In this document: positions 9,524 to 55,011 of the stretch, one piece after another
Position numbering within the stretch: the stretch's first letter is position 1
Layout: each line of letters starts with the position of its first letter
NCBI GenBank assembly: GCA_001464335.1
Contig: LNEV01000006.1
Span: forward strand, 124,001-188,000
Length of the DNA: 64,000 bases
Source: Rhizobiales bacterium Ga0077545
GTDB taxonomy: Bacteria; Pseudomonadota; Alphaproteobacteria; Rhizobiales; Methylopilaceae
Reading direction: 5' to 3'
Program-made: the position numbers and the translations under genes
The notes under the pieces: model-generated
Told to the model about the DNA's origin: nothing
The model's input: only the letters and a program-made list of their open reading frames with translations
Database searches by the model: none

Positions 9524-11788
9524 TCAGTCGGTGTATCCGTACGACTTGTAGCTCTTGCCGAAGAAATAGTCTTTCACATTGCTGTCGTAGCGGCTCATCG
9601 CGCGCAGGTCAGCCTTGCTGAGCACGGCGCCGACCAGCTTGTCGCGGAGGCCAGGCGTCGCCTCGAGAGCGTATTTGGCGACTTCCCTCTTGGTCTTGCC
9701 CCATTCGACAACGAACAGATAGCTGTCGATCAACCGATAGGTCGCACGCACATCCACGACCGGTGCGAGCGGCGAGAGATCGACGATGATGTATTGATAC
9801 TCGGCACGCAGCGCATGGAACAGTTCGGAGACTTTCTCCGAAGCAAAGACATCGCTGGAGTGCGAAAGCGGGCTGCTGCTGTAGCACGGCAGAAACGACA
9901 GACCTGTCTCCGAATCCGACCACATCACTTCCTTCAGCTTTGTCGCGTCTTTCAGAACGTCGAGAATGCCGGAGCGTGTTTTTCGCGACAGCGTGCGCGT
10001 AAGAGTCGGATTGCGGAGATCGCCGTCGACAAGAAGGGTTTTCGCGCCCGTTTGGGCGATCAGCAGCGCAAGCGCCGTCGAGAGTGTCGACTTGCCCTCA
10101 CCCGGCAGTGAAGATGTAATGCCGATAACGCGCGCGCCACTGCTATGCGGCGTGCTGTCCACCGACAGCTTCATCGAACGGATCGCTTCCGCAAATCGCG
10201 AGAACGGCTTTTCGACAACAGTCCATGCCGGCGTGCCCCCGCTCGCGATCTGGAACTCGCCCGGTTTGTTGCGCCGGGATGTCTTTTTCACTCCATCCTG
10301 ATCGAGAGCCTTGGGGACGATGGCCAGACAGTCGAGGTGAAGATCATTCTCGATCTCCTCCGGAGAACGAAATGCCTGGTCGGCGAGATCGCGCGCCGCG
10401 CCAAGCCCTAGACCGAGCATCAACCCAGCGAATATCGACCCCAGCAGAATAAGCTTCTTCTTCGGCTGGCTCGGTCCCGCAGGCGGCTCCGCACGCGAAA
10501 TCACGCGCGCGTCCGAGATCGGGAACGACTGCTGCTGGATCGTTTCCATGTAACGACGCAGGAAGGTATCGTACAGCGTACGCAGACTTTGCGCCGAACT
10601 CTGTAGCTCGTTCAGCGTAACCTGCGCTTCGTTGCTGTCCTGCGACAGCGAAACGGCTTTTTCCAGGTTTGCCTGCATGTCTTCTTCGCGCTTGCGGGCA
10701 ATGTCGAGGTCGGAGGTGTAGACCTCTTCCAGCCGTTTCAGTTCGCTCTGAATCGAAATCTCAATCTCGCGAATCTGGTTGCGGGCGTTCACGGCGGCGA
10801 GGTGATCACGCCCGAATCTGCGACTCCAGTCGGACTCGCGCGCAACAACATCGAGATAGCGTGACCGCAGCGCATTGACGACGTCGCTGCGAAGCTGATC
10901 GGTAACGGTCGCACCGCTCACGCCGCTTTCGAGGATCTGACGGACGCGATTAAGCCGCGCGCGCGCCTCGGCCGTCTGCGATCGCGCCAGGATCAACTGC
11001 GTGTTGATCTCGGCAAGCTGCTGACGGTCCAGAAGCCGTCCGCCGCCGTCCTCCACGATGTTGTTCTTGGTCTTGTATTCAACGACCATGCGCTCGGCGG
11101 TCGAGGCCTGCTCGCGCAACTCGGTGATACGCTGCTGCATCCAGACGCTCGCGCGCTGGGCGGCATCGAATTTCGCGCTAAGCTGGTCCGCTATGTACAC
11201 ATTGGCGATCGTGTCGGCGACCTCGGCGGCACGGCGCGGATCGATTGAGCTGTATTCGATGGCAATTACATAAGTGAGGCCTACGCGATAGACCCGCGTG
11301 TTGCCGCGCACCGTACCGACAGCCGCACGATTGAGCGTGGTTTCGGACAACGGCTCCGGCGTTGAAAAATAGCCAAATATCTTGCGCTTGAGCGATCCGA
11401 GCGGACTGGCAGTACCGGTCGTGAATTCGGGATCGGTCTGCAGCTTGAGCTGTTGGGCGACTTTGTTGGCGATCGTTTCGGAGCGCAGAAGCTCGACCTG
11501 GCTTTCGATGGTTCCGACATCGAGCGCCATGTCCATGAATGGCGACTGCGGCTGCAGGATCTGCGCCTGAGGTTTGTCGATCAGAATACGCGTCTGGGCG
11601 GTGTAGACCGGCGGAGCGTTGACGATATAGACGATGCCGAGCAGAAGCATGCACCCGACCGCAGCACCAATGATAAGGATGCGGCGCTTGATGAATCCAA
11701 TCGTCGCCCGAACGAGCTGCGATGGAGAAATTAGGTGCTCAGGCTGCTGATGCGGCCTGATATTGAGCAGACGGTCAACGCTGTTCAT
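9524..11788 (-). CDS. Wzc/GumC-type exopolysaccharide co-polymerase with BY-kinase domain
   Basis: A 754-residue two-part protein. The N-terminal Wzz-type part has a first membrane helix at about 37-57, a long periplasmic coiled-coil region (about 200-420) and a second helix near 446-463. The C-terminal tyrosine kinase part has Walker A (LPGEGKST, 561-568), Walker A-prime (LLVDGDLRNP, 585-594) and Walker B (YIIVDLSP, 666-673). Tyrosines 734, 741, 747, 750 and 752 form a C-terminal cluster, the usual autophosphorylation tail. The family controls chain length and couples polymerisation to the Wza channel. Both halves are in one chain, as in proteobacterial Wzc. Confidence 0.93.
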   Translation of the reverse strand: MNSVDRLLNIRPHQQPEHLISPSQLVRATIGFIKRRILIIGAAVGCMLLLGIVYIVNAPPVYTAQTRILIDKPQAQILQPQSPFMDMALDVGTIESQVELLRSETIANKVAQQLKLQTDPEFTTGTASPLGSLKRKIFGYFSTPEPLSETTLNRAAVGTVRGNTRVYRVGLTYVIAIEYSSIDPRRAAEVADTIANVYIADQLSAKFDAAQRASVWMQQRITELREQASTAERMVVEYKTKNNIVEDGGGRLLDRQQLAEINTQLILARSQTAEARARLNRVRQILESGVSGATVTDQLRSDVVNALRSRYLDVVARESDWSRRFGRDHLAAVNARNQIREIEISIQSELKRLEEVYTSDLDIARKREEDMQANLEKAVSLSQDSNEAQVTLNELQSSAQSLRTLYDTFLRRYMETIQQQSFPISDARVISRAEPPAGPSQPKKKLILLGSIFAGLMLGLGLGAARDLADQAFRSPEEIENDLHLDCLAIVPKALDQDGVKKTSRRNKPGEFQIASGGTPAWTVVEKPFSRFAEAIRSMKLSVDSTPHSSGARVIGITSSLPGEGKSTLSTALALLIAQTGAKTLLVDGDLRNPTLTRTLSRKTRSGILDVLKDATKLKEVMWSDSETGLSFLPCYSSSPLSHSSDVFASEKVSELFHALRAEYQYIIVDLSPLAPVVDVRATYRLIDSYLFVVEWGKTKREVAKYALEATPGLRDKLVGAVLSKADLRAMSRYDSNVKDYFFGKSYKSYGYTD

Positions 11789-11829
11789 ACGCTTGCCTTC
11801 CGGGCGCCGTCTGACGTTTCGTCACCCAG

Positions 11830-12501
11830 TCACGGGCTTACAGGCGTAACAATCGAGTCTGTATCGTCTTCGTCGTCGAACACAGAGCCGCCCGCTCCGG
11901 AAACCGAAGACGTGTAGCTGAAGAAGGGCGTCGAGATCGGATTGGCGCCAATCGGCTCGGCGGGGCCGCCGCCGCCCAACGGGCCGCCGAAAGGCGATAC
12001 CTGACCGCCGGATGCACCCGTCGAAGAAGCACCGAAACCACCACCCGGCGCACCGCCGAGAGCAGCCGTCGGCCGATCGCCACTCGCGGCGGTGAAGGCC
12101 ACGATCACGCTTTCATCGCCCGAAGCCGCAACGGCTTCCTGGATCTGGCTGGCATAAGGATTGTTCGCACGCACGCAACCCGCAGCGGCCTGAGCGAGAG
12201 CCGTTGCCAGCGCGGATTTCTGGTCGTCGTTCGCCTGCTTCAGAAGCTCGATCATCGGCGCCAGCGTCGACGTGTCGGTCGACACCAGATCGCGAGCGTC
12301 ACGAATAAGGGCTCCGCCGCCATCCGGGTGGGTGCCGAGAAGAGCGGGTGGATTGCTTAGAAAGAGTCCGATCTGCTCGGTCGAAGCTCCAAGATCGCTG
12401 CGAAAACACCCGGCCGGAGCCGCTTCAGCCTGCGACACGGACACAACGGTCAGAAGAGCAATGGCCAGCGATTTATGCGGTGCCAACAGGTGTTTAAGCA
12501 T
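11830..12501 (-). CDS. Exported Gly/Ser/Pro-rich protein of the exopolysaccharide operon, function unknown
   Basis: From the ATG at 12501 the protein is 223 residues. That start is chosen because GGGAGAGG lies eight bases upstream and a Sec signal peptide (KSLAIALLTVVSVSQAEA, ending near residue 27) follows directly. The middle is a helical domain with two likely disulphide cysteines. The last third is low-complexity Gly/Ser/Pro and ends in a short acidic patch (FDDEDDTD). No family was recognised. Position between the ligase-like gene and the autokinase gene suggests a periplasmic or outer-membrane accessory role in polymer export. Confidence 0.7.
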   Translation of the reverse strand: MLKHLLAPHKSLAIALLTVVSVSQAEAAPAGCFRSDLGASTEQIGLFLSNPPALLGTHPDGGGALIRDARDLVSTDTSTLAPMIELLKQANDDQKSALATALAQAAAGCVRANNPYASQIQEAVAASGDESVIVAFTAASGDRPTAALGGAPGGGFGASSTGASGGQVSPFGGPLGGGGPAEPIGANPISTPFFSYTSSVSGAGGSVFDDEDDTDSIVTPVSP

Positions 12502-12537
12502 TTTCGGGACCTCTCCCATCAAGTTGTGTTCTTCTAC

Positions 12538-12583
12538 CTTAAATAAAGTTGGAGGCAAATAGCACGCGTAAGACTTATTTAAG
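12538..12583. repeat. Nine-base inverted repeat CTTAAATAA/TTATTTAAG in an AT-rich gap
   Basis: The gap upstream of the exported-protein gene carries CTTAAATAA at 12538-12546 and its exact reverse complement at 12575-12583, 28 bases apart. Both arms are much AT-richer than the surroundings. There is no T-run to make it a terminator. A paired binding site for a regulator, or a promoter-proximal element for the gene at 12501, is possible. Confidence 0.35.
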
Positions 12584-12590
12584 AACGTGA

Positions 12591-13937
12591 TTACCGGCCG
12601 GACCGCGACATCCTCATCGACTGCGATATCCCTGCTCCCACGAGGATAAGAACGGGCACAGCAAGTCCCGGAATCTGCAACGAAAAGTCGACCAGCGAAT
12701 GCCCAAGAACAAGCGCCAAGATCGCGAGGCTCCCAATAGTCACATGTGAAACCTTTCGTCGTTTAACCAACGCACGAAGTAAAAGCCCAAGAACAGCCAA
12801 GCTGAACACAAGGCTGAGCGCCGCCACCGGCACACCTGCCTCGACTGCCACCTGAAGCAGGACATTGTGGGCGCGATCCCAGGTTCCCCACACGCTCATG
12901 TCGCCGCTGCGGAAGATCGGAAAATAGGTCTCGAAGCTACCGAGACCCAATCCGATCATGGGCCGCTGCCAGACCATTTCCCAAGCCGAACGATAGGCTT
13001 CGAAGCGGCCCCCATCGCCGAAACCCTCAAGATTGAGGCGGCCATGGATCAAGACGCTCAGCACGGCAAAGCCGGCAACGCCGACAAAGATGTTGCGTCC
13101 ACTGCGGGAAAAACGGGAGTCGTTGAACAGCATGAACAGGCCTGCAGCCAGCGCGCATGCGCCGATCGACAGCACACCTCCGGCGCGCGAATGTGTCATC
13201 AGAAGCGCGGTGAAGCAGAGCGCTAGCCGGACGAGATCGCTGAAAAGGCGCTTGCGCGGATCGCCGCTCGGCACGGCTTCGACAGCCAACTTGCCCTCCC
13301 CCTCCCAGCCTCCGCCCAGCGCTTTTAAAGCGCGAAGCACACGAAGGCTGGCCCAGACACAGGCGATCCCGAAGAACACCGCCGCCGTGTTTCGATTGGT
13401 GAACGTGGCGGTCAGATCTTCAAAATGCCCTTCCTTTGGCAGCCACAGCACATATCCGGGTGCGACGAGGTGCTGGACGATGCCGAAGATTGCATAAACG
13501 CTCGCAACCCAGAGAAAGACTTCAATCAGAGCCCGACATGCCCGTTGGCCGGTGCCGAGAACGAGACCTGCCGCCAAGGCGAAGATCGCTGCCAATGCGG
13601 GGACCATCGCCTGGACGTACTGGCCTATGAGCGCCCCGGAAGCCGACACACCGGAACCGAGCAGACGGACGATCCTGTCACGCTCGGCTGACGGCACCCA
13701 CGGGCCCGCGGCGACCTGCAAGGCAGCCACAACACAAAGAGCAAGAGCAAGGATTGCGAGAGCGGCGAGGATCGCCCAATGGCGTCCATCCAGCCTGTCA
13801 ATCGGAGACAGAACAAGTGCCAGCGCGCAAAGGACAATGAGGCCTGCTCCCGCGACGGGATTCATGGCCCCGAAGAACAAGGGCGCCAGCGCGATCGCTA
13901 CAGCCAGAACGAAAAGGGCAGGCTTTCGGGCGTCCAT
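12591..13937 (-). CDS. O-antigen-ligase-family membrane protein (Wzy_C domain)
   Basis: From the ATG at 13937 the protein is 448 residues; this start has GGGAG seven bases upstream, whereas longer in-frame starts would give an Arg/Ser-rich leader before the first helix. There are roughly eleven hydrophobic segments. The conserved Wzy_C region holds LTHSRAGGVLS and later GLGLGSFETYFP followed by WDRAHNVLLQVAVEAG, with the His in the usual place of ligase/polymerase proteins. It may be the polymerase for the exopolysaccharide or may attach the polymer to an acceptor. It is cotranscribed with the Wza gene 58 bases upstream. Confidence 0.82.
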   Translation of the reverse strand: MDARKPALFVLAVAIALAPLFFGAMNPVAGAGLIVLCALALVLSPIDRLDGRHWAILAALAILALALCVVAALQVAAGPWVPSAERDRIVRLLGSGVSASGALIGQYVQAMVPALAAIFALAAGLVLGTGQRACRALIEVFLWVASVYAIFGIVQHLVAPGYVLWLPKEGHFEDLTATFTNRNTAAVFFGIACVWASLRVLRALKALGGGWEGEGKLAVEAVPSGDPRKRLFSDLVRLALCFTALLMTHSRAGGVLSIGACALAAGLFMLFNDSRFSRSGRNIFVGVAGFAVLSVLIHGRLNLEGFGDGGRFEAYRSAWEMVWQRPMIGLGLGSFETYFPIFRSGDMSVWGTWDRAHNVLLQVAVEAGVPVAALSLVFSLAVLGLLLRALVKRRKVSHVTIGSLAILALVLGHSLVDFSLQIPGLAVPVLILVGAGISQSMRMSRSGR

Positions 13938-13995
13938 GGACGACTCCCGGACCTTCATCCTGCCAGCCCGAGACCGTGCCGGCAGGACAGAAGGA

Positions 13996-15180
13996 TCACT
14001 GGAGCGAGTTGTGAAGATCCACACCGTTTTGCGCCGCAACGAGCGGATCGTTTGTGGTCGCTGTGATGAGGCGGATGTAGTTGAGGATCTTCGCGGTCTC
14101 CACGGCAGTCGCGTTGGAGACGTAGAGCAAATCCTTGTTCCGCATCTGGAACTTGGTGGCGAGGAAATACTCCGACGGATCGCGGAAATTGACGTGATAC
14201 ACGACCGGAATCACAGGTCCGGGGAAGCGTGTCACATCGAGACCGAGACTCTCGGCAACTTCGCGACTTTCGCCACGATAGACGAAGACCATGCCCGGAT
14301 CGGCGAGAGTGTCGTTCAGACCACCGGCCTTGGCGACGCCTTCGGCCATCGAAATACGCCAAGCGTCGAAATTGAACTGCCCCTGCTGTCCGGCAGCGCC
14401 GAAGGCAACGAAGGTCTGCGGCTCACGATAGACATAGATGGTGTCGTTCGGATGGACGTAGATGTTGTTGGACGGCTCATAGACCAGCGCGCCGAACGGC
14501 ACGGATTCACGACGCCCCTTGCGCTCAAGCGTGATCCACGTGTCGAAGCCCTGCCCCTTCGGACCGCCCGCGCGCGTGATCGCGTCAAGGATGCGTTCAG
14601 CGGCCGCGCTTGCCGGAATACGCGCCGGCGCGTTGACCTCACCGAGCACGCTGAACAGAGACGTCCGCTGATCGACCAGCGCCACGACAACCTGCGGCTC
14701 GATGGCCCGGTTCGAAAGCGCATCCACGATGGACTTCTGAACATCGGCAGCCGTGCGTCCAGCCGCAGCAATCGCGCCAGCATACGGAACCGAAATATTG
14801 CCGGCACTGTCGACGGCCTGATTGGGCAGCGAAATGAAATTGCCCGGGCGATCGCCTTGTTCAGGAATGAACAGGCCGCCGGCCTGAGACTCGAAGATCG
14901 TGACGGCAACCACATCGCCGACACCGAACTTGATCTCGCCTGGCGCTCGACGATCCTGGAACACCCGCGACAGCCCCGGCGTATGCCGAGTCAGAATGTC
15001 GAGGCTCCTCTCGTTCAGGGGAACCAGCGCATAAGGAAGGCTATCGGGAGTGACTTTGCCCTTAACGATATCGGACCCTTTGGGTCCCATGGAGGGCATG
15101 CTCTGACAGCCGACGAGAAGCGTCGACACCAGTCCAAGCGTAACCAGCCGTGGCGCGAATCGAAACAAGCGAACCCCCAA
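13996..15180 (-). CDS. Wza/KpsD-type polysaccharide export lipoprotein
   Basis: A 394-residue outer-membrane polysaccharide export protein. It starts with a lipoprotein signal peptide and lipobox LLVGC (Cys25). A Poly_export domain follows (GVGDVVAVTIFE near 87, with VPYAGAIAAAGRTAADVQKSI near 130) and then SLBB-type segments (GEVNAPARIPASAAAERILDAITRAGG; ITMAEGVAKAGGL-like repeats). The family forms the periplasm-spanning channel that docks on the Wzc-type protein. No ATG is available at the signal peptide: the start is a TTG, either at 15180 or four codons on, the latter with GGGGG five bases upstream. Confidence 0.9.
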   Translation of the reverse strand: MGVRLFRFAPRLVTLGLVSTLLVGCQSMPSMGPKGSDIVKGKVTPDSLPYALVPLNERSLDILTRHTPGLSRVFQDRRAPGEIKFGVGDVVAVTIFESQAGGLFIPEQGDRPGNFISLPNQAVDSAGNISVPYAGAIAAAGRTAADVQKSIVDALSNRAIEPQVVVALVDQRTSLFSVLGEVNAPARIPASAAAERILDAITRAGGPKGQGFDTWITLERKGRRESVPFGALVYEPSNNIYVHPNDTIYVYREPQTFVAFGAAGQQGQFNFDAWRISMAEGVAKAGGLNDTLADPGMVFVYRGESREVAESLGLDVTRFPGPVIPVVYHVNFRDPSEYFLATKFQMRNKDLLYVSNATAVETAKILNYIRLITATTNDPLVAAQNGVDLHNSLQ

Positions 15181-15339
15181 TCAACCCGCCTTTGAGTAGC
15201 ATCCGGTTTGCTGGAGCCACAAGCAAACCCGGCGATTTCGTGACTCTTTGAACGAGTACTGTTGCTTTGGGGACACGCAATGCGAGTGGCAAAGAAAGCC
15301 GTGCTGAAGGGCTTCTTAAGGCATTGAAAAATCTATATA

Positions 15340-15368
15340 ATTATTTACGAAAGATAACATGCTGGCAA
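15340..15368 (-). promoter_or_regulatory. Candidate sigma-70-like promoter for the Wza operon
   Basis: The 303-base gap 15181-15483 holds no gene that I can support. Its middle (about 15325-15360) is strikingly AT-rich. On the minus strand it reads TTGCCA (15368-15363), a 17-base spacer, and AATAAT (15345-15340), each matching the sigma-70 consensus at five of six positions. Transcription would begin near 15333 and leave a leader of about 150 bases before the export lipoprotein gene. Confidence 0.4.
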
Positions 15369-15483
15369 TTGCGTCCCGCAGCGCGGAAGCCACAAAACCG
15401 ATGGGTTCTCTCGAGGCATACGGCACTCGCTGCAACGCGTATCAATCGGTCCAGAAAGCGATCACTGGAACCGCTTGCGGCTG

Positions 15484-16905
15484 TCAGCGACCGTAGATGT
15501 CGTCGAAACGTTCAATATCATCTTCGCCCAGATAGCTGCCGGTCTGGACCTCGATCAGTTCGAGATCGATCTTGCCCGGATTGGCGAGCCGGTGGATCGC
15601 TCCTTGCGGAATGTAGGTGGACTCGTTCTCCAGCAGCATCCGCGTCTCGTTGCCGATAACGACCTCGGCCGTCCCTCGCACGACGATCCAGTGCTCGGCG
15701 CGATGCAGATGCTTCTGCAGCGACAGGCGCCCGCCCGGCTTGACGACGATGCGCTTCACCTGAAAGCGGGAGCCGGTGTCGATTGATTGATAGAAGCCCC
15801 AAGGGCGGTAGCCACGTGCGTGGCTGTCGGCCTGCGCATAGCGTTTCTCGCGCAGTTTCGTGACCGTTGCGCGAATGCTGTCGGCGTCGGAACGGCGGGC
15901 GACGAGGATGGCGTCGTCGTCGGCAACAACAACAACGTCATCAAGGCCAGCGACCGCGATCAGGTGCCGATCGGACATCGCGAAGGAATTGGTGCTGCCC
16001 ACCATCTCGACCGGACCGCGCACGACATTGCCGCTGCTATCCTTTGTTCCAACGTCCCAGATCGCGTCCCAGGTGCCGAGATCGGACCATCCGTGATCGA
16101 TCGGCAGCACGGCGGCCCGCAGGGTGTGCTCCATCACCGCATAATCGAGGCTTCGCGCGGTGGCGCGGCCGAAAGCTTCCTCATTCAGCCGCAGGAAGTT
16201 CAGATCCTTCTCGGCAGACCCGACCGCCTCCGCAACGGCCTTAACCGTGCGCGGATCGACGGCCTCGTATTCCCCGAGCATGATTTTCGCGGAGAAGAGG
16301 AAATTGCCCGAGTTCCAGAGATAGCCGTCCGCGAGGTAGCGCGCCGCGGTTGCCGCGTCCGGCTTTTCAACAAAGGCCTCGACCGCGCTGAGGCCCGTTT
16401 CGGCAAGCGCTGCGCCCGGCCGGATGTAGCCGTAAGCGGTGGACGGCGTGGCCGGAGACACGCCGAACACGACGATATGGCCGGCTTCGGCGACCGGCAG
16501 CGCGGCGGCGCAGGCCGCGCGGAAAATGTCTGGCCGTCGCACGAGATGATCGGCGGCGAGAACAAGCACGACCGCTTCGGGATCGCGCGACAGGGCAAAA
16601 AGGGCCGCAGCCGCCACCGCCGGTCCGGAATCGCGGCGGCAGGGTTCGAGAAGGATTTCGGCAGATGCGCCGATGCCTTCAAGCTGCTCGTTGACAAGAA
16701 AGCCGTGGTCCCGGTTCGCGACGACGATGGGCTTTGCGAAAAGCTCGGTGTCGGACACCGTCAATACGGCTTCCTGGAACGTGGAGCGCGGCCCGGCCAG
16801 AGGAAGAAACTGCTTGGGGCGCGTTTCGCGTGAGGCCGGCCAGAGCCTCGTGCCTGCCCCGCCGCACAGAATAACCGGGACAATCTTTACCTGTGCCATG
16901 CGCAT
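15484..16905 (-). CDS. Mannose-1-phosphate guanylyltransferase / mannose-6-phosphate isomerase
   Basis: A 473-residue bifunctional enzyme, normal length for the ManC/XanB/CpsB/AlgA family. The nucleotidyltransferase signature GGAGTRLWPASRETRPKQF begins near residue 15, VEKPDAATAARYL lies mid-protein, and the C-terminal type II isomerase cupin has RPWGFYQSID and LQKHLHRAEHWIVVRGTAEV. It makes mannose-6-P and GDP-mannose in the cytoplasm for the mannose-using glycosyltransferases encoded to the left. The chain could start two codons later at a second ATG; neither has a strong ribosome binding site. Confidence 0.93.
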   Translation of the reverse strand: MRMAQVKIVPVILCGGAGTRLWPASRETRPKQFLPLAGPRSTFQEAVLTVSDTELFAKPIVVANRDHGFLVNEQLEGIGASAEILLEPCRRDSGPAVAAAALFALSRDPEAVVLVLAADHLVRRPDIFRAACAAALPVAEAGHIVVFGVSPATPSTAYGYIRPGAALAETGLSAVEAFVEKPDAATAARYLADGYLWNSGNFLFSAKIMLGEYEAVDPRTVKAVAEAVGSAEKDLNFLRLNEEAFGRATARSLDYAVMEHTLRAAVLPIDHGWSDLGTWDAIWDVGTKDSSGNVVRGPVEMVGSTNSFAMSDRHLIAVAGLDDVVVVADDDAILVARRSDADSIRATVTKLREKRYAQADSHARGYRPWGFYQSIDTGSRFQVKRIVVKPGGRLSLQKHLHRAEHWIVVRGTAEVVIGNETRMLLENESTYIPQGAIHRLANPGKIDLELIEVQTGSYLGEDDIERFDDIYGR

Positions 16906-51693: not shown

Positions 51694-52278
51694 TCAGCGA
51701 AGAACCACCACGCGGGCGCCGACATTCACGCGCTCGTAAAGATCGGCGACGTCCTCGTTCGTCATGCGGAAACAGCCGGACGACACAGCCTGGCCGATCG
51801 TCCACGGCTCGTTGGAGCCGTGGATGCGGTAGATGGTCGAGCCGAGATAGAGCGCACGCGCGCCGAGCGGATTGTTCGGGCCGCCGGGCATGAAACGCGG
51901 CAGGTCCGGACGGCGCTTCAGCATGGCCGCCGGCGGACGCCAATCCGGCCATTCGCGCTTCATCGTCACCGAATGCGCCCCGCCCCATGTGAAGCCGTCG
52001 CGACCGACACCGATGCCGTATTTCAGCGCCTTGCCATCCGGCTGGATGAGATAGAGGCGACGCTCGGTCGTGTTCACGACGATCGTGCCGGGTTTGTATT
52101 TTCCCGGATACTCGACGACCGTCTTCTTGATCGGCGAGGTGCCCATGCGGCCGGTGCCACGGTTTTCCAGCGGCTGGCGGCTCGACGGATCGACCATCAG
52201 GGGCGCAAACGCATTCGCGGGAACGACAAAAGCCGCGGCTGCGGCAAGAGCGGCGAAGGAAAGAAGGATACGGCGCAT
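51694..52278 (-). CDS. L,D-transpeptidase (YkuD domain), exported
   Basis: The ATG at 52278 has GAGG six bases upstream and gives 194 residues; longer frames lack a credible start. A signal peptide (about 1-24, LLSFAALAAAAAFVVPANA) leads to a YkuD domain: VVNTTERRLYLIQPDGKALKYGIGVG near 68, IYRIHGSNEPWTIGQAVSSGCFRM, holding the catalytic His-Gly and Ser-x-Gly-Cys motif. It cross-links peptidoglycan or attaches proteins to it in the periplasm. Many Hyphomicrobiales encode several such enzymes. Confidence 0.93.
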   Translation of the reverse strand: MRRILLSFAALAAAAAFVVPANAFAPLMVDPSSRQPLENRGTGRMGTSPIKKTVVEYPGKYKPGTIVVNTTERRLYLIQPDGKALKYGIGVGRDGFTWGGAHSVTMKREWPDWRPPAAMLKRRPDLPRFMPGGPNNPLGARALYLGSTIYRIHGSNEPWTIGQAVSSGCFRMTNEDVADLYERVNVGARVVVLR

Positions 52279-52437
52279 GTTCGGCCTCGTTCCAGGGGCG
52301 GCACTCAAAGCCTGCCCACAGTGTTCCCTGTTCTTCCCAAGGTAAGACTGATTTTTCAATTGCGATGACACGGTTCGGACGCCGTTAAGGCAGGAGTGTG
52401 GCCGGAGGGACACGGTTTGCGTGGCACAAAAGCGCGA

Positions 52438-52466
52438 TTGAACTCAAAACGAAGCACAACTATAAC
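52438..52466 (+). promoter_or_regulatory. Candidate promoter for the GT8-capsule gene
   Basis: The 420-base gap 52279-52698 changes from GC-rich to AT-rich near 52400. It has TTGAAC (52438-52443), a 17-base spacer and TATAAC (52461-52466), a good sigma-70 pair, with expected start near 52473 and a leader of about 225 bases. No other gene, repeat or integrase could be supported in this gap. Confidence 0.45.
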
Positions 52467-52698
52467 GATTACAATTTTAATCCTACAGCCCATCCGGTGC
52501 GGCAATGACTTGGCTCAAAACGGCTGCACTCATCGCAAGCGTGTCGATCACAAAATATTGGCACCTCTATGCGAATGCCCCAATCCCCCACGGCACATAA
52601 GCCCCTGAGGATAACTCGATCAATGCTGCCCGATCGCCCACCTCACGCGTGAACGCCTGTGTCTTACATCGCGTCATCTAGAAACAGAACCGATCTCT

Positions 52699-53352
52699 AT
52701 GACCAAACATTTTTCTGCGCTATCTTCCAACGTAACAACACTCAACAGCGTCAATGTTGTGTTCGGCTCCGACCGACCATTTCTTCCGTACACAGCCGTT
52801 GCTCTCCAATCCCTTCTATCGAACTATAAGGACCACAGGAATCTCCGGATATTTCTGCTCGTCGATCAGCCTCTTTCGGACGACGACCAGCGTAGGTTCG
52901 AAAGCCTTACGGCGGGCCGTCCGTTCGAGTTGAACGTGATTGTCGCAGATGCATCAGCGTTTAAGAATATAAGAACAACAAACGGCATAACAACGCCGAC
53001 TTACTATCGCCTCTATATGCATCTGCTTCTACCGCCCGACGTCGATAAAGCCATCTGGCTGGATGGCGATGTTATCGTGCGATCGGATATCTCCGAATTA
53101 TTCGACATCGAAATGGGTGACACCTTGTTCGCGGGCGTCGAAGACACTCTCAGCAACCGTTATCGTCGCCAATTCAATCTTGAGGCGACAGCCAAACACA
53201 TAAACTGCGGTGTCCTCGTATCGAACGTCAGTGGAATGCGCCGCTTCGATTTCCTAAGAAAAATTGAAGATTTTATAACGGACAATAAGTACATAATCAC
53301 GCTCGGAGATCAGCAGATTATCAATACACTTTTCAGGGATCGATTAAGTTAG
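52699..53352 (+). CDS. GT8-family glycosyltransferase, N-terminal part, cut by a frameshift
   Basis: The 217-residue frame is a near-complete GT8 catalytic domain: VNVVFGSDRPFLPYTAVALQSLL at the N-terminus, the metal-binding DxD in WLDGDVIVRSDI (D122 and D124), NCGVLVSNV near 169 and GDQQIIN near 203. It stops at TAG where the family normally continues into a beta-strand and HxxGxxKPW. That continuation is found, in a different reading frame, in the next frame. GC content is well below neighbours and codon use includes many A/T third bases. It is probably inactive unless the break is a sequencing error. Confidence 0.75.
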   Translation: MTKHFSALSSNVTTLNSVNVVFGSDRPFLPYTAVALQSLLSNYKDHRNLRIFLLVDQPLSDDDQRRFESLTAGRPFELNVIVADASAFKNIRTTNGITTPTYYRLYMHLLLPPDVDKAIWLDGDVIVRSDISELFDIEMGDTLFAGVEDTLSNRYRRQFNLEATAKHINCGVLVSNVSGMRRFDFLRKIEDFITDNKYIITLGDQQIINTLFRDRLS

Positions 53353-53360
53353 TACATTTG
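53340..53360 (+). other. Frameshift junction joining the GT8 and capsule-synthesis frames
   Basis: Reading the second frame back from 53358 gives Ile-Lys-Leu-Val-His-Leu-Lys-Trp-Asn, exactly the GT8 strand that should follow the Asp-Arg at 53338-53343 of the first frame. Adding one base near 53343 would join both into one frame of about 709 residues. There is no homopolymer and no slippery heptamer, so neither phase variation nor programmed frameshifting is supported. Confidence 0.75.
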
Positions 53361-54827
53361 AAATGGAACCTTCATGGACACGTCCTTGATGGCTTCAGAT
53401 CCCGAGATTCAAATGGAATATCGCCTAAGGAAATTGCAGATGCACGCACAGATCCCGCAATCATGCACTACTGCGGTGAGATAAAGCCCTGGAGCGCTGG
53501 AAGAAAACATCGCAAGAACTGCGAGTGGCATGATTACGCTAGCCTATCTCCATACTGGGATGTCCTAAATTCTTCACTTTCGCAGACATCTGGATCCCCC
53601 TTAGCTCGGCAAACTGGCTTGCTAAAACGCTTTTGGGATCGCATCCGAAAACGGCCACGCGAACTACGTCACGTTATAAAATTACTGCAAGCGAACGCCG
53701 ATATTGCAGATATATCCTTGCGATGCCAAATGCAGTCGTTGTTACGACGACACGGGGAAAATATTTCGTCAAGGCATTTTAGCGCAAGCGGATTCGTTGC
53801 ATCTTTGCCGGAAAATAGCCGTATCGCTTACAGCGGAAACGGCGATGATCTTTCGGGTGGCTTTCATGAGAACTTAAAGAATATTTTCCGCACAGCGAAC
53901 ATCGGCACAAACATACATCCGGCCAATGCAGACTTCTCGATGCTTCTTCTCCAAGATCTTTATAGTGACAGACAATGGAAGTGTCTGATGGCATCACAAA
54001 TGGGAGTGAGTATCATATTCGCAGAAGCATCGTTCTTCGGTGCGTACGCTGGATATCATGACCCGCTTGCGCCTTATCATCAGAAGAAAGCGTTTGGGTA
54101 TGTTCTTGACGATCTAGGGTATTTTTTCGACGCGAGCCAACCATCTCGTCTAGAGACCATCCTGAATAGCTCGACATTCCAACTCGATTCCAAAGACATC
54201 GCACGTTGCCAAAAACTGATTCAACAGATCAAAGACGAGAAGATAACGAAGTATAATAAGTACGCGGGTCAAGATGCATCCCCTATGATAGCGGGATCTG
54301 TCCTTGTGGTAGACCAGAAACTATCAGATGCCTCCGTGGCCTTCGGAGGCGGCTCCGCGCAAACTTTCCAAGAAATGATAGCAGCCGCGGTCAGCGAAAA
54401 CCCAGGCAGGAAAGTCTATCTGAAGCGGCATCCCGACAACATTCATAATAACAAATCGGCATTCCCAAAAGTCCCATCCTTAGTTTCCGTTCTGCCCGAC
54501 GATTGCGATGTAACTTCCATCCTCGACTCCTGCCATGCTGTCTATACTGTCTCTTCTCAAGTCAGCTTCGAGGCCCTTTTGCGGGACAAAAAAGTTGTTA
54601 CTTTTGGAATGCCCTTCTATTCAGGATGGGGCCTGACGGATGATAGACAAAAGATCCGGCGGAGAACCCAGGCGAGGACGATTGAGGAGCTGTTCCATAC
54701 GGCGTGCATCAGACTTTCGGTCTATTATGACCCCCGAACACGTAAGCTGATTGAGATAGAAGGTGCATTCGACCTCATTAGAGAAATGAGGAACGAGGAT
54801 CGACAAGCCCTTCAGGGCCTCCAATAA
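53358..54827 (+). CDS. GT8 C-terminal segment fused to a KpsC-like capsule polysaccharide synthesis domain
   Basis: The 489-residue frame starts at a TTG with no ATG nearby, and its first 60 residues are the missing end of the GT8 domain (KWNLHGHVLDG; HYCGEIKPW at 37-45). After a Lys/Arg-rich linker (about 85-130) the rest resembles the Capsule_synth (KpsC/KpsS/LipB) family: KRHPD at 356-360, SSQVSFEALL at 399-408 and FGMPFYSGWGLTDDR at 416-430. Such domains transfer Kdo when priming lipid-anchored capsules. A GT8-KpsC-like fusion is unusual. AT-rich and next to a tRNA, it looks acquired. Confidence 0.72.
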   Translation: MKWNLHGHVLDGFRSRDSNGISPKEIADARTDPAIMHYCGEIKPWSAGRKHRKNCEWHDYASLSPYWDVLNSSLSQTSGSPLARQTGLLKRFWDRIRKRPRELRHVIKLLQANADIADISLRCQMQSLLRRHGENISSRHFSASGFVASLPENSRIAYSGNGDDLSGGFHENLKNIFRTANIGTNIHPANADFSMLLLQDLYSDRQWKCLMASQMGVSIIFAEASFFGAYAGYHDPLAPYHQKKAFGYVLDDLGYFFDASQPSRLETILNSSTFQLDSKDIARCQKLIQQIKDEKITKYNKYAGQDASPMIAGSVLVVDQKLSDASVAFGGGSAQTFQEMIAAAVSENPGRKVYLKRHPDNIHNNKSAFPKVPSLVSVLPDDCDVTSILDSCHAVYTVSSQVSFEALLRDKKVVTFGMPFYSGWGLTDDRQKIRRRTQARTIEELFHTACIRLSVYYDPRTRKLIEIEGAFDLIREMRNEDRQALQGLQ

Positions 54828-54863
54828 CCATCATCGCCCACGACTTTTCAGTTCGTGCTTCAT

Positions 54864-54899
54864 GCCCGATATGGTCGCAAAGTCGCGCCAATATCGGGC
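54864..54899. repeat. Nine-base inverted repeat between the capsule gene and tRNA-Val
   Basis: GCCCGATAT (54864-54872) and ATATCGGGC (54891-54899) are perfect reverse complements, separated by 18 bases, in the 109-base gap. It lies just downstream of the tRNA 3' end on the tRNA strand, with no T-run. It may help end or process the tRNA transcript, or be a trace of the insertion boundary. Confidence 0.45.
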
Positions 54900-54936
54900 C
54901 TCGGGTTGTGAGTAAAGGCTGGTGGCGGAGGTAAAA

Positions 54937-55011
54937 TGGTGGGCGATACAGGGATTGAACCTGTGACCCCTCCCGTGTGAAGGGAGTGCTCTCCCGCTGA
55001 GCTAATCGCCC
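54937..55011 (-). tRNA. tRNA-Val (anticodon CAC)
   Basis: The minus strand folds as a full cloverleaf: acceptor GGGCGAT pairing with ATCGCCC, D arm GCTC-AGCGGGA-GAGC, anticodon stem CTCCC/GGGAG around loop TTCACAC (anticodon CAC, reading GTG), and T arm ACAGG-TTCAATC-CCTGT. The discriminator is A and the CCA end is encoded. It stands alone; the 3' end faces the AT-rich insert. Confidence 0.97.

Follow-up and report, generated by a model that had tools for sequence, protein, structure and literature searches.

We analysed a stretch of 64,000 nucleotides from Rhizobiales bacterium Ga0077545 (contig LNEV01000006.1; hereafter the window) that carries a gene joining a GT8 glycosyltransferase domain to a domain resembling KpsC, a transferase of 3-deoxy-D-manno-oct-2-ulosonic acid (Kdo). 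As assembled, two open reading frames (ORFs) of the window are the halves of this one fusion gene. With moderate confidence, we read it as a broken copy of a bifunctional [alpha-hexose-beta-Kdo] capsule or K-antigen polymerase that is carried by phages and islands and would re-coat the host. Both domains are known already, as are two-domain Kdo polymerases (CsaA and KrkA); the pairing of GT8 with a KpsC-like domain, and its repeated carriage by phages next to genes of tail-fibre type, are apparently new. Full-text literature searches gave no description of the pairing or of its phage carriage in the titles and abstracts among the matches listed.

A GT8 and KpsC-like gene divided between two frames

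The Pfam model PF01501 (Glyco_transf_8; cut-off 24.3 bits) matched the first frame over profile positions 1-207 of 253 with 98.4 bits (E 6.4e-28), so the first half passes as a GT8 domain. The remaining profile lies in the second frame, which overlaps the first in the -1 register: positions 212-250 matched there with 19.6 bits (E 7.2e-4), a score that alone falls below the cut-off. The second frame also matched PF05159 (Capsule_synth; cut-off 20 bits) with 101.6 bits (E 7.5e-29). An earlier reading of the letters alone (the sequence-only reading) had proposed this arrangement, with a GT8 domain that ends in the -1 frame and is joined to a KpsC-like domain across one frame change. The matches to both families in the two frames agree with that proposal, as do the six intact fusions and the sister-protein folds described below, and the motifs it named (HLKWN, HYCGEIKPW, KRHPD and FGMPFYSGWGLTDDR) are all present.

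An intact counterpart is encoded in a genome of the window's own genus (G298; 728 amino acids, L032:8558-10744, minus strand). Residues 18-217 of the first frame are 56% identical to this protein over 200 residues, and the second frame, from its residue 3, is 49% identical to it over 492 columns. On the G298 protein, a single residue separates the two blocks, which stop at 234 and resume at 236. Because the intact protein is collinear across the junction, we conclude that, as assembled, the two frames belong to a single gene with one change of frame. Six relatives of 728-769 amino acids are intact fusions without internal stops: those of G298, of Lampropedia cohaerens and of four virus contigs (L127, L129, L134 and L135). 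All six have the two-transferase-domain build that is split in the window copy. The homologues are thus not always two genes, in keeping with the single protein that the sequence-only reading had envisaged. The L129, L134 and L135 proteins are 74-79% identical to one another, and the remaining pairs of intact fusions are 38-46% identical.

The halves might be made as separate, cooperating proteins, with a restart at a TTG in the second frame. This frame is open from 53289, and the TTG at 53358 sits 5 bp past the first-frame stop codon. However, the split cuts through the GT8 fold and separates the DxD and KPW motifs, each of the six intact relatives is a single protein, and no slippery heptamer occurs in the overlap of the two frames. 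We consider such a restart highly improbable. Two native separate genes were ruled out on the last two of these grounds, and so was a programmed frameshift, which the six intact relatives do not need.

A single assembly cannot separate a mutation from an assembly error. Across 2.1 kb aligned to G298 at roughly 50% identity, the frame change is the sole break found, and the window comes from one draft assembly of 19 contigs, so an assembly or sequencing error in a gene that is intact in the organism has to be weighed. Against it, the junction has no long homopolymer (the only run of at least four bases in 53281-53400 is one TTTT), and the long neighbouring ORFs of the window are open. A family copy in virus contig L130 is also broken, by a transposase gene, so loss of the gene happens. 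An error is possible, but we think it unlikely.

Table 1. Features of the fusion gene and of its surroundings in the window
Feature	Position	Strand	Basis
Stretch not aligned with the collinear G298 locus; its low-G+C core, which holds the gene, is the presumed insertion	52139..54935	.	Locus comparison
First half: GT8 domain without its C-terminal end, 217 amino acids	52699..53352	+	PF01501, G298 alignment
Asp-Gly-Asp (DxD) codons in the GT8 half	53062..53070	+	Sequence, alignment
Second half, -1 frame: end of GT8, linker and predicted KpsC-like beta-Kdo transferase domain, 489 amino acids	53358..54827	+	PF05159, PF01501, G298 alignment
HYCGEIKPW, C-terminal GT8 motif, now in the second frame	53466..53492	+	Sequence, alignment
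Glu codon aligned with the Glu of KpsC EDGF; candidate general base, presumed equivalent of Glu66	54024..54026	+	Alignment
QXXXD motif (QKLSD) with candidate nucleophile Asp	54315..54329	+	Alignments; motif as described in PMC10148158
HPD codons (HP motif, CMP binding)	54429..54437	+	Alignments; motif as described in PMC12887879
tRNA-Val (CAC), 3' end facing the insertion	54937..55011	-	ARAGORN

Motifs, folds and the predicted hexose-Kdo polymer

Both GT8 signatures, DGD (DxD) and HYCGEIKPW (HxxGxxKPW), are present in the window, in two different frames. HxxGxxKPW is the C-terminal motif of GT8. The DxD, GDQQ, KPW, QXXXD and HPD motifs, a Lys-Tyr pair and the Glu at the EDGF position are kept in the window and in the aligned intact fusions. 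QXXXD and HP are described as the conserved core of retaining Kdo transferases (PMC10148158, PMC12887879). When the alignment was counted by hand, the counterparts of the Kdo-contacting KpsC residues Lys133, Tyr134 and Asp196 were identical. KpsC chains in the PDB were also matched, with 6mgb the best (E 9.9e-41). From the Pfam and PDB matches, the C-terminal domain is predicted to be of the GT107 (KpsC) type.

The structure model was built for the sister protein from G298 and not for the window protein. It has two confident cores, with a weak linker and N-lobe (mean pLDDT 64, pTM 0.42). Residues 35-310 show a GT-A fold that matches LgtC (Z 26.1, 267 residues, 3.3 A), and the GT8 part also matches WbbM (PDB 6u4b; Z 24.5). 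Residues 379-720, with the low-confidence N-lobe, match the KpsC beta-2,4-Kdo transferase in 6mgb (Z 23.9, 245 residues, 4.2 A). The VIA-align fold list was filled by GT-A folds, and families absent from that list therefore carry no meaning. Neither half of the window gene fell into a PHROGs family, nor did two phage fusions.

GT8 enzymes and KpsC-type enzymes are both reported to be retaining (PMC9587256, PMC10148158), and an alpha-hexose and a beta-Kdo are therefore predicted. We propose that the GT8 domain at the N-terminus would transfer a hexose (probably galactose or glucose) from a UDP-sugar to form an alpha linkage, and that the C-terminal domain would add beta-Kdo from CMP-Kdo via a covalent Asp-Kdo intermediate. 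Alternating transfers would build [alpha-Hex-beta-Kdo]n on a Kdo-ended glycolipid, and a capsule ATP-binding cassette (ABC) transporter would export the chain. If this is true, it makes a sharp prediction: alternating hexose and beta-Kdo from a single protein.

The C-terminal domain could instead transfer another ulosonic acid, such as a pseudaminic acid. KpsS1 (GT118), a relative of KpsS, is reported to transfer a pseudaminic acid derivative (PMC12887879), and such sugars are reported from some rhizobial K-antigens (PMC4881576). However, the three identical counterparts of Kdo-contacting residues argue for Kdo, as do the nearest folds of the domain, which in the sister protein are Kdo transferases. 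We regard a donor other than Kdo as quite unlikely. The Kdo-synthesis genes near the Lampropedia fusion do not decide the donor, because a Kdo linker needs them anyway.

The alternating polymerase that we favour resembles known enzymes in part. As described in PMC9592894, CsaA is a single protein whose hexosamine transferase (N-terminal) and beta-Kdo transferase (C-terminal) make the sugar-Kdo repeat of the Kingella kingae type a capsule. Compared by description, it differs from a retaining GT8 enzyme in the beta-GalNAc linkage formed by its N-terminal domain, and the available part of that source mentions no phage carriage. KrkA of E. coli K13 is described as bifunctional, with a sugar-beta-Kdo repeat and a QXXXD nucleophile in a retaining Kdo transferase, but its Kdo domain is N-terminal and belongs to GT140, and its partner is a ribofuranosyltransferase, not GT8 (PMC12887879). 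KpsC (GT107), as described in PMC10148158, is like the fusion's C-terminal domain in active-site residues and, going by the sister-protein model, in fold. It has two Kdo modules and builds the linker, whereas the fusion has one module plus GT8 and a divergent N-lobe. LgtC, an alpha-galactosyltransferase of GT8, shares the GT8 fold but is a single-domain protein. WbbM is, like the fusion, a bifunctional transferase with a GT8-like domain; to our knowledge, its other domain is not KpsC-like. For E. coli capsule loci, a GT29-GT107 protein and GT99/GT107-like domains are described, and 'GT8' does not occur in the available main text of that source (PMC13171606).

For S. fredii USDA205 and USDA208, K-antigens composed of alpha-Gal and beta-Kdo have been reported (PMC4881576). 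If our reading is true, the fusion is a candidate for the synthesis of alpha-hexose-beta-Kdo K-antigens like the one of USDA205, for which the available part of the same source names no polymerase.

Settings in a capsule locus, on phages and in islands

In Lampropedia cohaerens, the fusion gene is part of a capsule locus, with export genes on one side and Kdo-synthesis genes on the other. The locus encodes KpsS, both ABC transporter parts, a Poly_export protein, KdsA, KdsB with a phosphatase part and a two-module KpsC. It also encodes a KpsE-type protein, which had no Pfam match and was named from its position, and a protein that we take from its sequence to be of the KdsD type. Besides KpsS and KpsC, the fusion is the only recognised sugar transferase in 16.6 kb, and no other was matched among the ten proteins of the locus scanned with Pfam. 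A kps-type setting was thus seen in Lampropedia; no second PF05159 protein was detected in the window genome or in G298.

The sequence-only reading had offered capsule priming or glycan decoration as the role of the pairing. Priming now appears less likely, for the Lampropedia primers KpsS and KpsC are separate proteins of the same locus, in which the fusion stands at the place expected of the polymer-maker. Decoration would fit the phage cassettes. The 'system' that this reading spoke of suits the phage copies, which lie in cassettes, and not the window gene, which has no partner genes.

The fusion gene of Lampropedia and its neighbour, orf262, have a G+C content of 0.37-0.38, compared with 0.58-0.62 for the kps and kds genes, and this part of the locus therefore looks imported. 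The orf262 protein (L054:9036-9824) had no Pfam match. It is homologous to the product of L127:830-2056 (42% identity), each gene lying beside a fusion and neither having a Pfam or PHROGs family. By reading, a GSSK(A/S)xY motif in the two proteins resembles the nucleophile elbow of hydrolases; the orf262 model was poor (pLDDT 49).

The fusion gene is also phage cargo. Six IMG/VR contigs carry it: four copies are intact, one is interrupted by a transposase gene and one, in L131, is cut by the contig edge so that only its end is present. On all six contigs, the gene or the piece present faces a large convergent gene that has the type or the position of a tail-fibre gene. The large gene is a tail fibre or tail spike in L127 and L135 (PHROGs) and has a GDSL-lipase match in L129, L130 and L131, which in L129 and L131 falls just under the Pfam cut-off; in L134 it had no Pfam match and is assigned to the tail type by place alone. 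On the other side of the fusion gene, L129 has an endolysin gene, and the same ORF was recognised by eye in L130. L135 has a muramidase beyond the tail gene. Methyltransferases lie near the copies in L127 (two), L134 (one) and L135 (one), and a hexapeptide-repeat transferase lies near the L129 copy, again with the same ORF by eye in L130. The neighbours in L127 also include a separate KpsC-like module and the homologue of orf262. According to a table in PMC4881576, 2-O-methylated hexoses occur next to Kdo in S. fredii USDA201, USDA205 and USDA257, and methyltransferases beside the phage copies would suit such sugars. In L130:2840-6578, a gene of the L129 type is interrupted within its GT8 part by the transposase gene (DUF772/DDE, 366 amino acids). 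This is a second, different loss of the same gene.

Could the fusion serve decoration instead, adding a single hexose and a single Kdo to a lipopolysaccharide (LPS) core, an O-antigen or another glycan? We treat this as the main rival, because neither of the two Hyphomicrobiales genomes showed a KpsS/KpsC relative, or any second PF05159 protein, as a candidate primer. Phage carriage beside a gene of tail-fibre type resembles receptor modification, as with GtrABC of P22, which is reported to block adsorption (PMC10883804). The GT8 half also has a weak NCBIfam match to an LPS galactosyltransferase (E 1.7e-17), which at 63.6 bits stays well short of the cut-off of 461 bits. However, the Lampropedia copy occupies the place of the polymerase in a complete capsule locus, and two transferase domains in one chain are the build of the polymerases CsaA and KrkA. 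We therefore find decoration doubtful.

Phage genes that act on host surface polysaccharides have precedents in gtrABC of P22, which alters the O-antigen (PMC10883804), and in the Wzy genes described from Acinetobacter prophages (PMC13228068). The former is a Gtr system and the latter are Wzy polymerases, whereas the enzyme here would be a two-domain GT8-Kdo protein with a presumed effect on the surface. If the fusion is indeed a polymerase, it is a case of phages carrying a whole polymerase for a capsule-type chain.

In G298 (L032:5532-18051), the fusion gene lies between a tyrosine integrase gene, which adjoins a tRNA-Glu, and a type I restriction-modification set. From these flanks, the G298 fusion may be part of a defence-type island. 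It overlaps by four bases a 338-amino-acid gene whose only Pfam match, below threshold, is DUF6716 (E 0.006). Lampropedia KpsS matches the same model (E 4.5e-5), and no homologue of the 338-amino-acid partner was found in the window genome.

The same two aligned blocks are 2797 bp apart in the window and 292 bp apart in G298. The gene has a G+C content of 0.479, compared with 0.63 for the window. G298 alone was collinear in this empty-site comparison; G297 is without the LDT gene in the stretch compared, and G285 is rearranged. The 3' end of a tRNA gene is a common integration site. No integrase, and no flanking repeat with the tRNA, was seen around the window gene. These data suggest that the window gene is an AT-rich insertion of one gene next to tRNA-Val, with one frame change that breaks it. 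A prophage remnant was considered and rejected, with no phage-type gene recognised nearby and no flanking repeat.

We propose that the gene moves on phages, beside a gene of tail-fibre type, on a tRNA-linked island and within a capsule locus, and that it most likely re-coats the host. In this genome, it would have arrived as a single-gene insertion beside tRNA-Val and then been broken by one frame change, presumably with loss of activity. A wider scenario, which we put forward only tentatively, is that such genes act as one-gene K-antigen switches. A mobile [hexose-Kdo] polymerase would take over a Kdo primer or LPS, phage-specific methylation or acetylation would trim the new coat, and the tail fibre would co-evolve. 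Hosts would then lose the gene, as by the frameshift in the window and the transposon in L130.

Several observations weigh against a mobile hexose-Kdo polymerase. The Gly of HxxGxxKPW is absent from the Lampropedia and phage fusions in the alignment, and at the position of the Kdo-contacting KpsC residue Tyr93 the window has Phe where the other aligned fusions have Tyr, as counted by hand. Outside its cores, the G298 model is weak, chiefly in the N-lobe, which would bind the acceptor and differs in sequence from that of KpsC. Only one PF05159 protein was found in the window genome and likewise in G298, and no primer or linker enzyme was found for either; the window genome is 94% complete, and absences from it are therefore not final. 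No phage-type gene was recognised among the ORFs surrounding the window gene. Reading of the phage stretches, without a profile search, revealed no kps transporter. Finally, the support for a single clade of fusions (SH-like approximate likelihood ratio test, SH-aLRT, 94) is below the 95 mark. This value comes from a quick method applied to 58 of 142 dereplicated KpsC-like domains (8 fusions, 3 fixed, 25 best-scoring and 22 random; the L130 copy was left out). The eight fusion rows all lay to one side of a branch, and the window adjoined G298.

Rarity of the fusion and other KpsC-like proteins

The GT8-KpsC fusion family looks rare. Genomes were surveyed in overlapping draws with the second half or with alignments of the Kdo half that contain no GT8; no search aimed directly at GT8 was made. 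At the level of the order, the second half had a KpsC-like match in 60 of the 297 genomes; except in the window genome, the matches listed begin no earlier than query residue 213. Within the family, 15 of 18 genomes matched; besides the window genome, only G298 did so over nearly the whole query. With Kdo-half alignments, matches were found across the class (14/385 genomes; the window genome aside, most of the model was covered in G504 alone), in Lampropedia's family (22/200; only Lampropedia before model position 113) and across the phylum (56/398; only the window genome before position 86).

In an ORF check of 127 loci, the two parts occurred together only in copies of the window gene, G298, Lampropedia and L127. 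Two short patterns of small reach, run against the contigs of 84,980 species, gave two relatives, G298 and Lampropedia. One viral scan was empty, and further ones together gave the six distinct contigs. Among plasmid records, none covered 80% of the Lampropedia fusion and none was a near match to L135; one record (H1) covers 85% of the window second half at 26% identity. No phage record matched over 80% of the L127 fusion.

Three candidates for the same build were rejected. The G504 proteins (755 and 1019 amino acids) match only the KpsC-like part of the Lampropedia fusion, L037 has a KpsC-like domain joined to GT2, and the 1177-amino-acid KpsC-like protein of Rhizobium phage RHph_X2_30 (MW980061.1) has no GT8 match. 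This phage protein (L139:7473-11006) has two KpsC-like stretches and a weak TPR match, and its gene lies near endolysin and tail genes. At L075:6710-12063 (minus strand), adjoining KpsC-like proteins of 1019 and 755 amino acids are encoded in a one-contig genome of 1.3 Mb; by reading, their differing N-terminal parts resemble GT2-type transferases. In the neighbouring genus g2, all 13 genomes have one KpsC-like match each (L019, L021, L042-L052). The frames are mostly of about 530-570 amino acids, with two of 1088, and three scanned with Pfam show only Capsule_synth.

The window genome encodes three Poly_export proteins and one CTP_transf_3 protein of the CMP-sugar-synthetase family, presumably KdsB. 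Elsewhere in the window (9524-16905, minus strand), ORFs resemble a Wzy-type exopolysaccharide locus, with names given by reading. They include a Wzc-like protein of 754 amino acids, an O-antigen-polymerase-like membrane protein, a mannose-1-phosphate guanylyltransferase-like protein and a Poly_export protein with a PF02563 match at 14677-14946.

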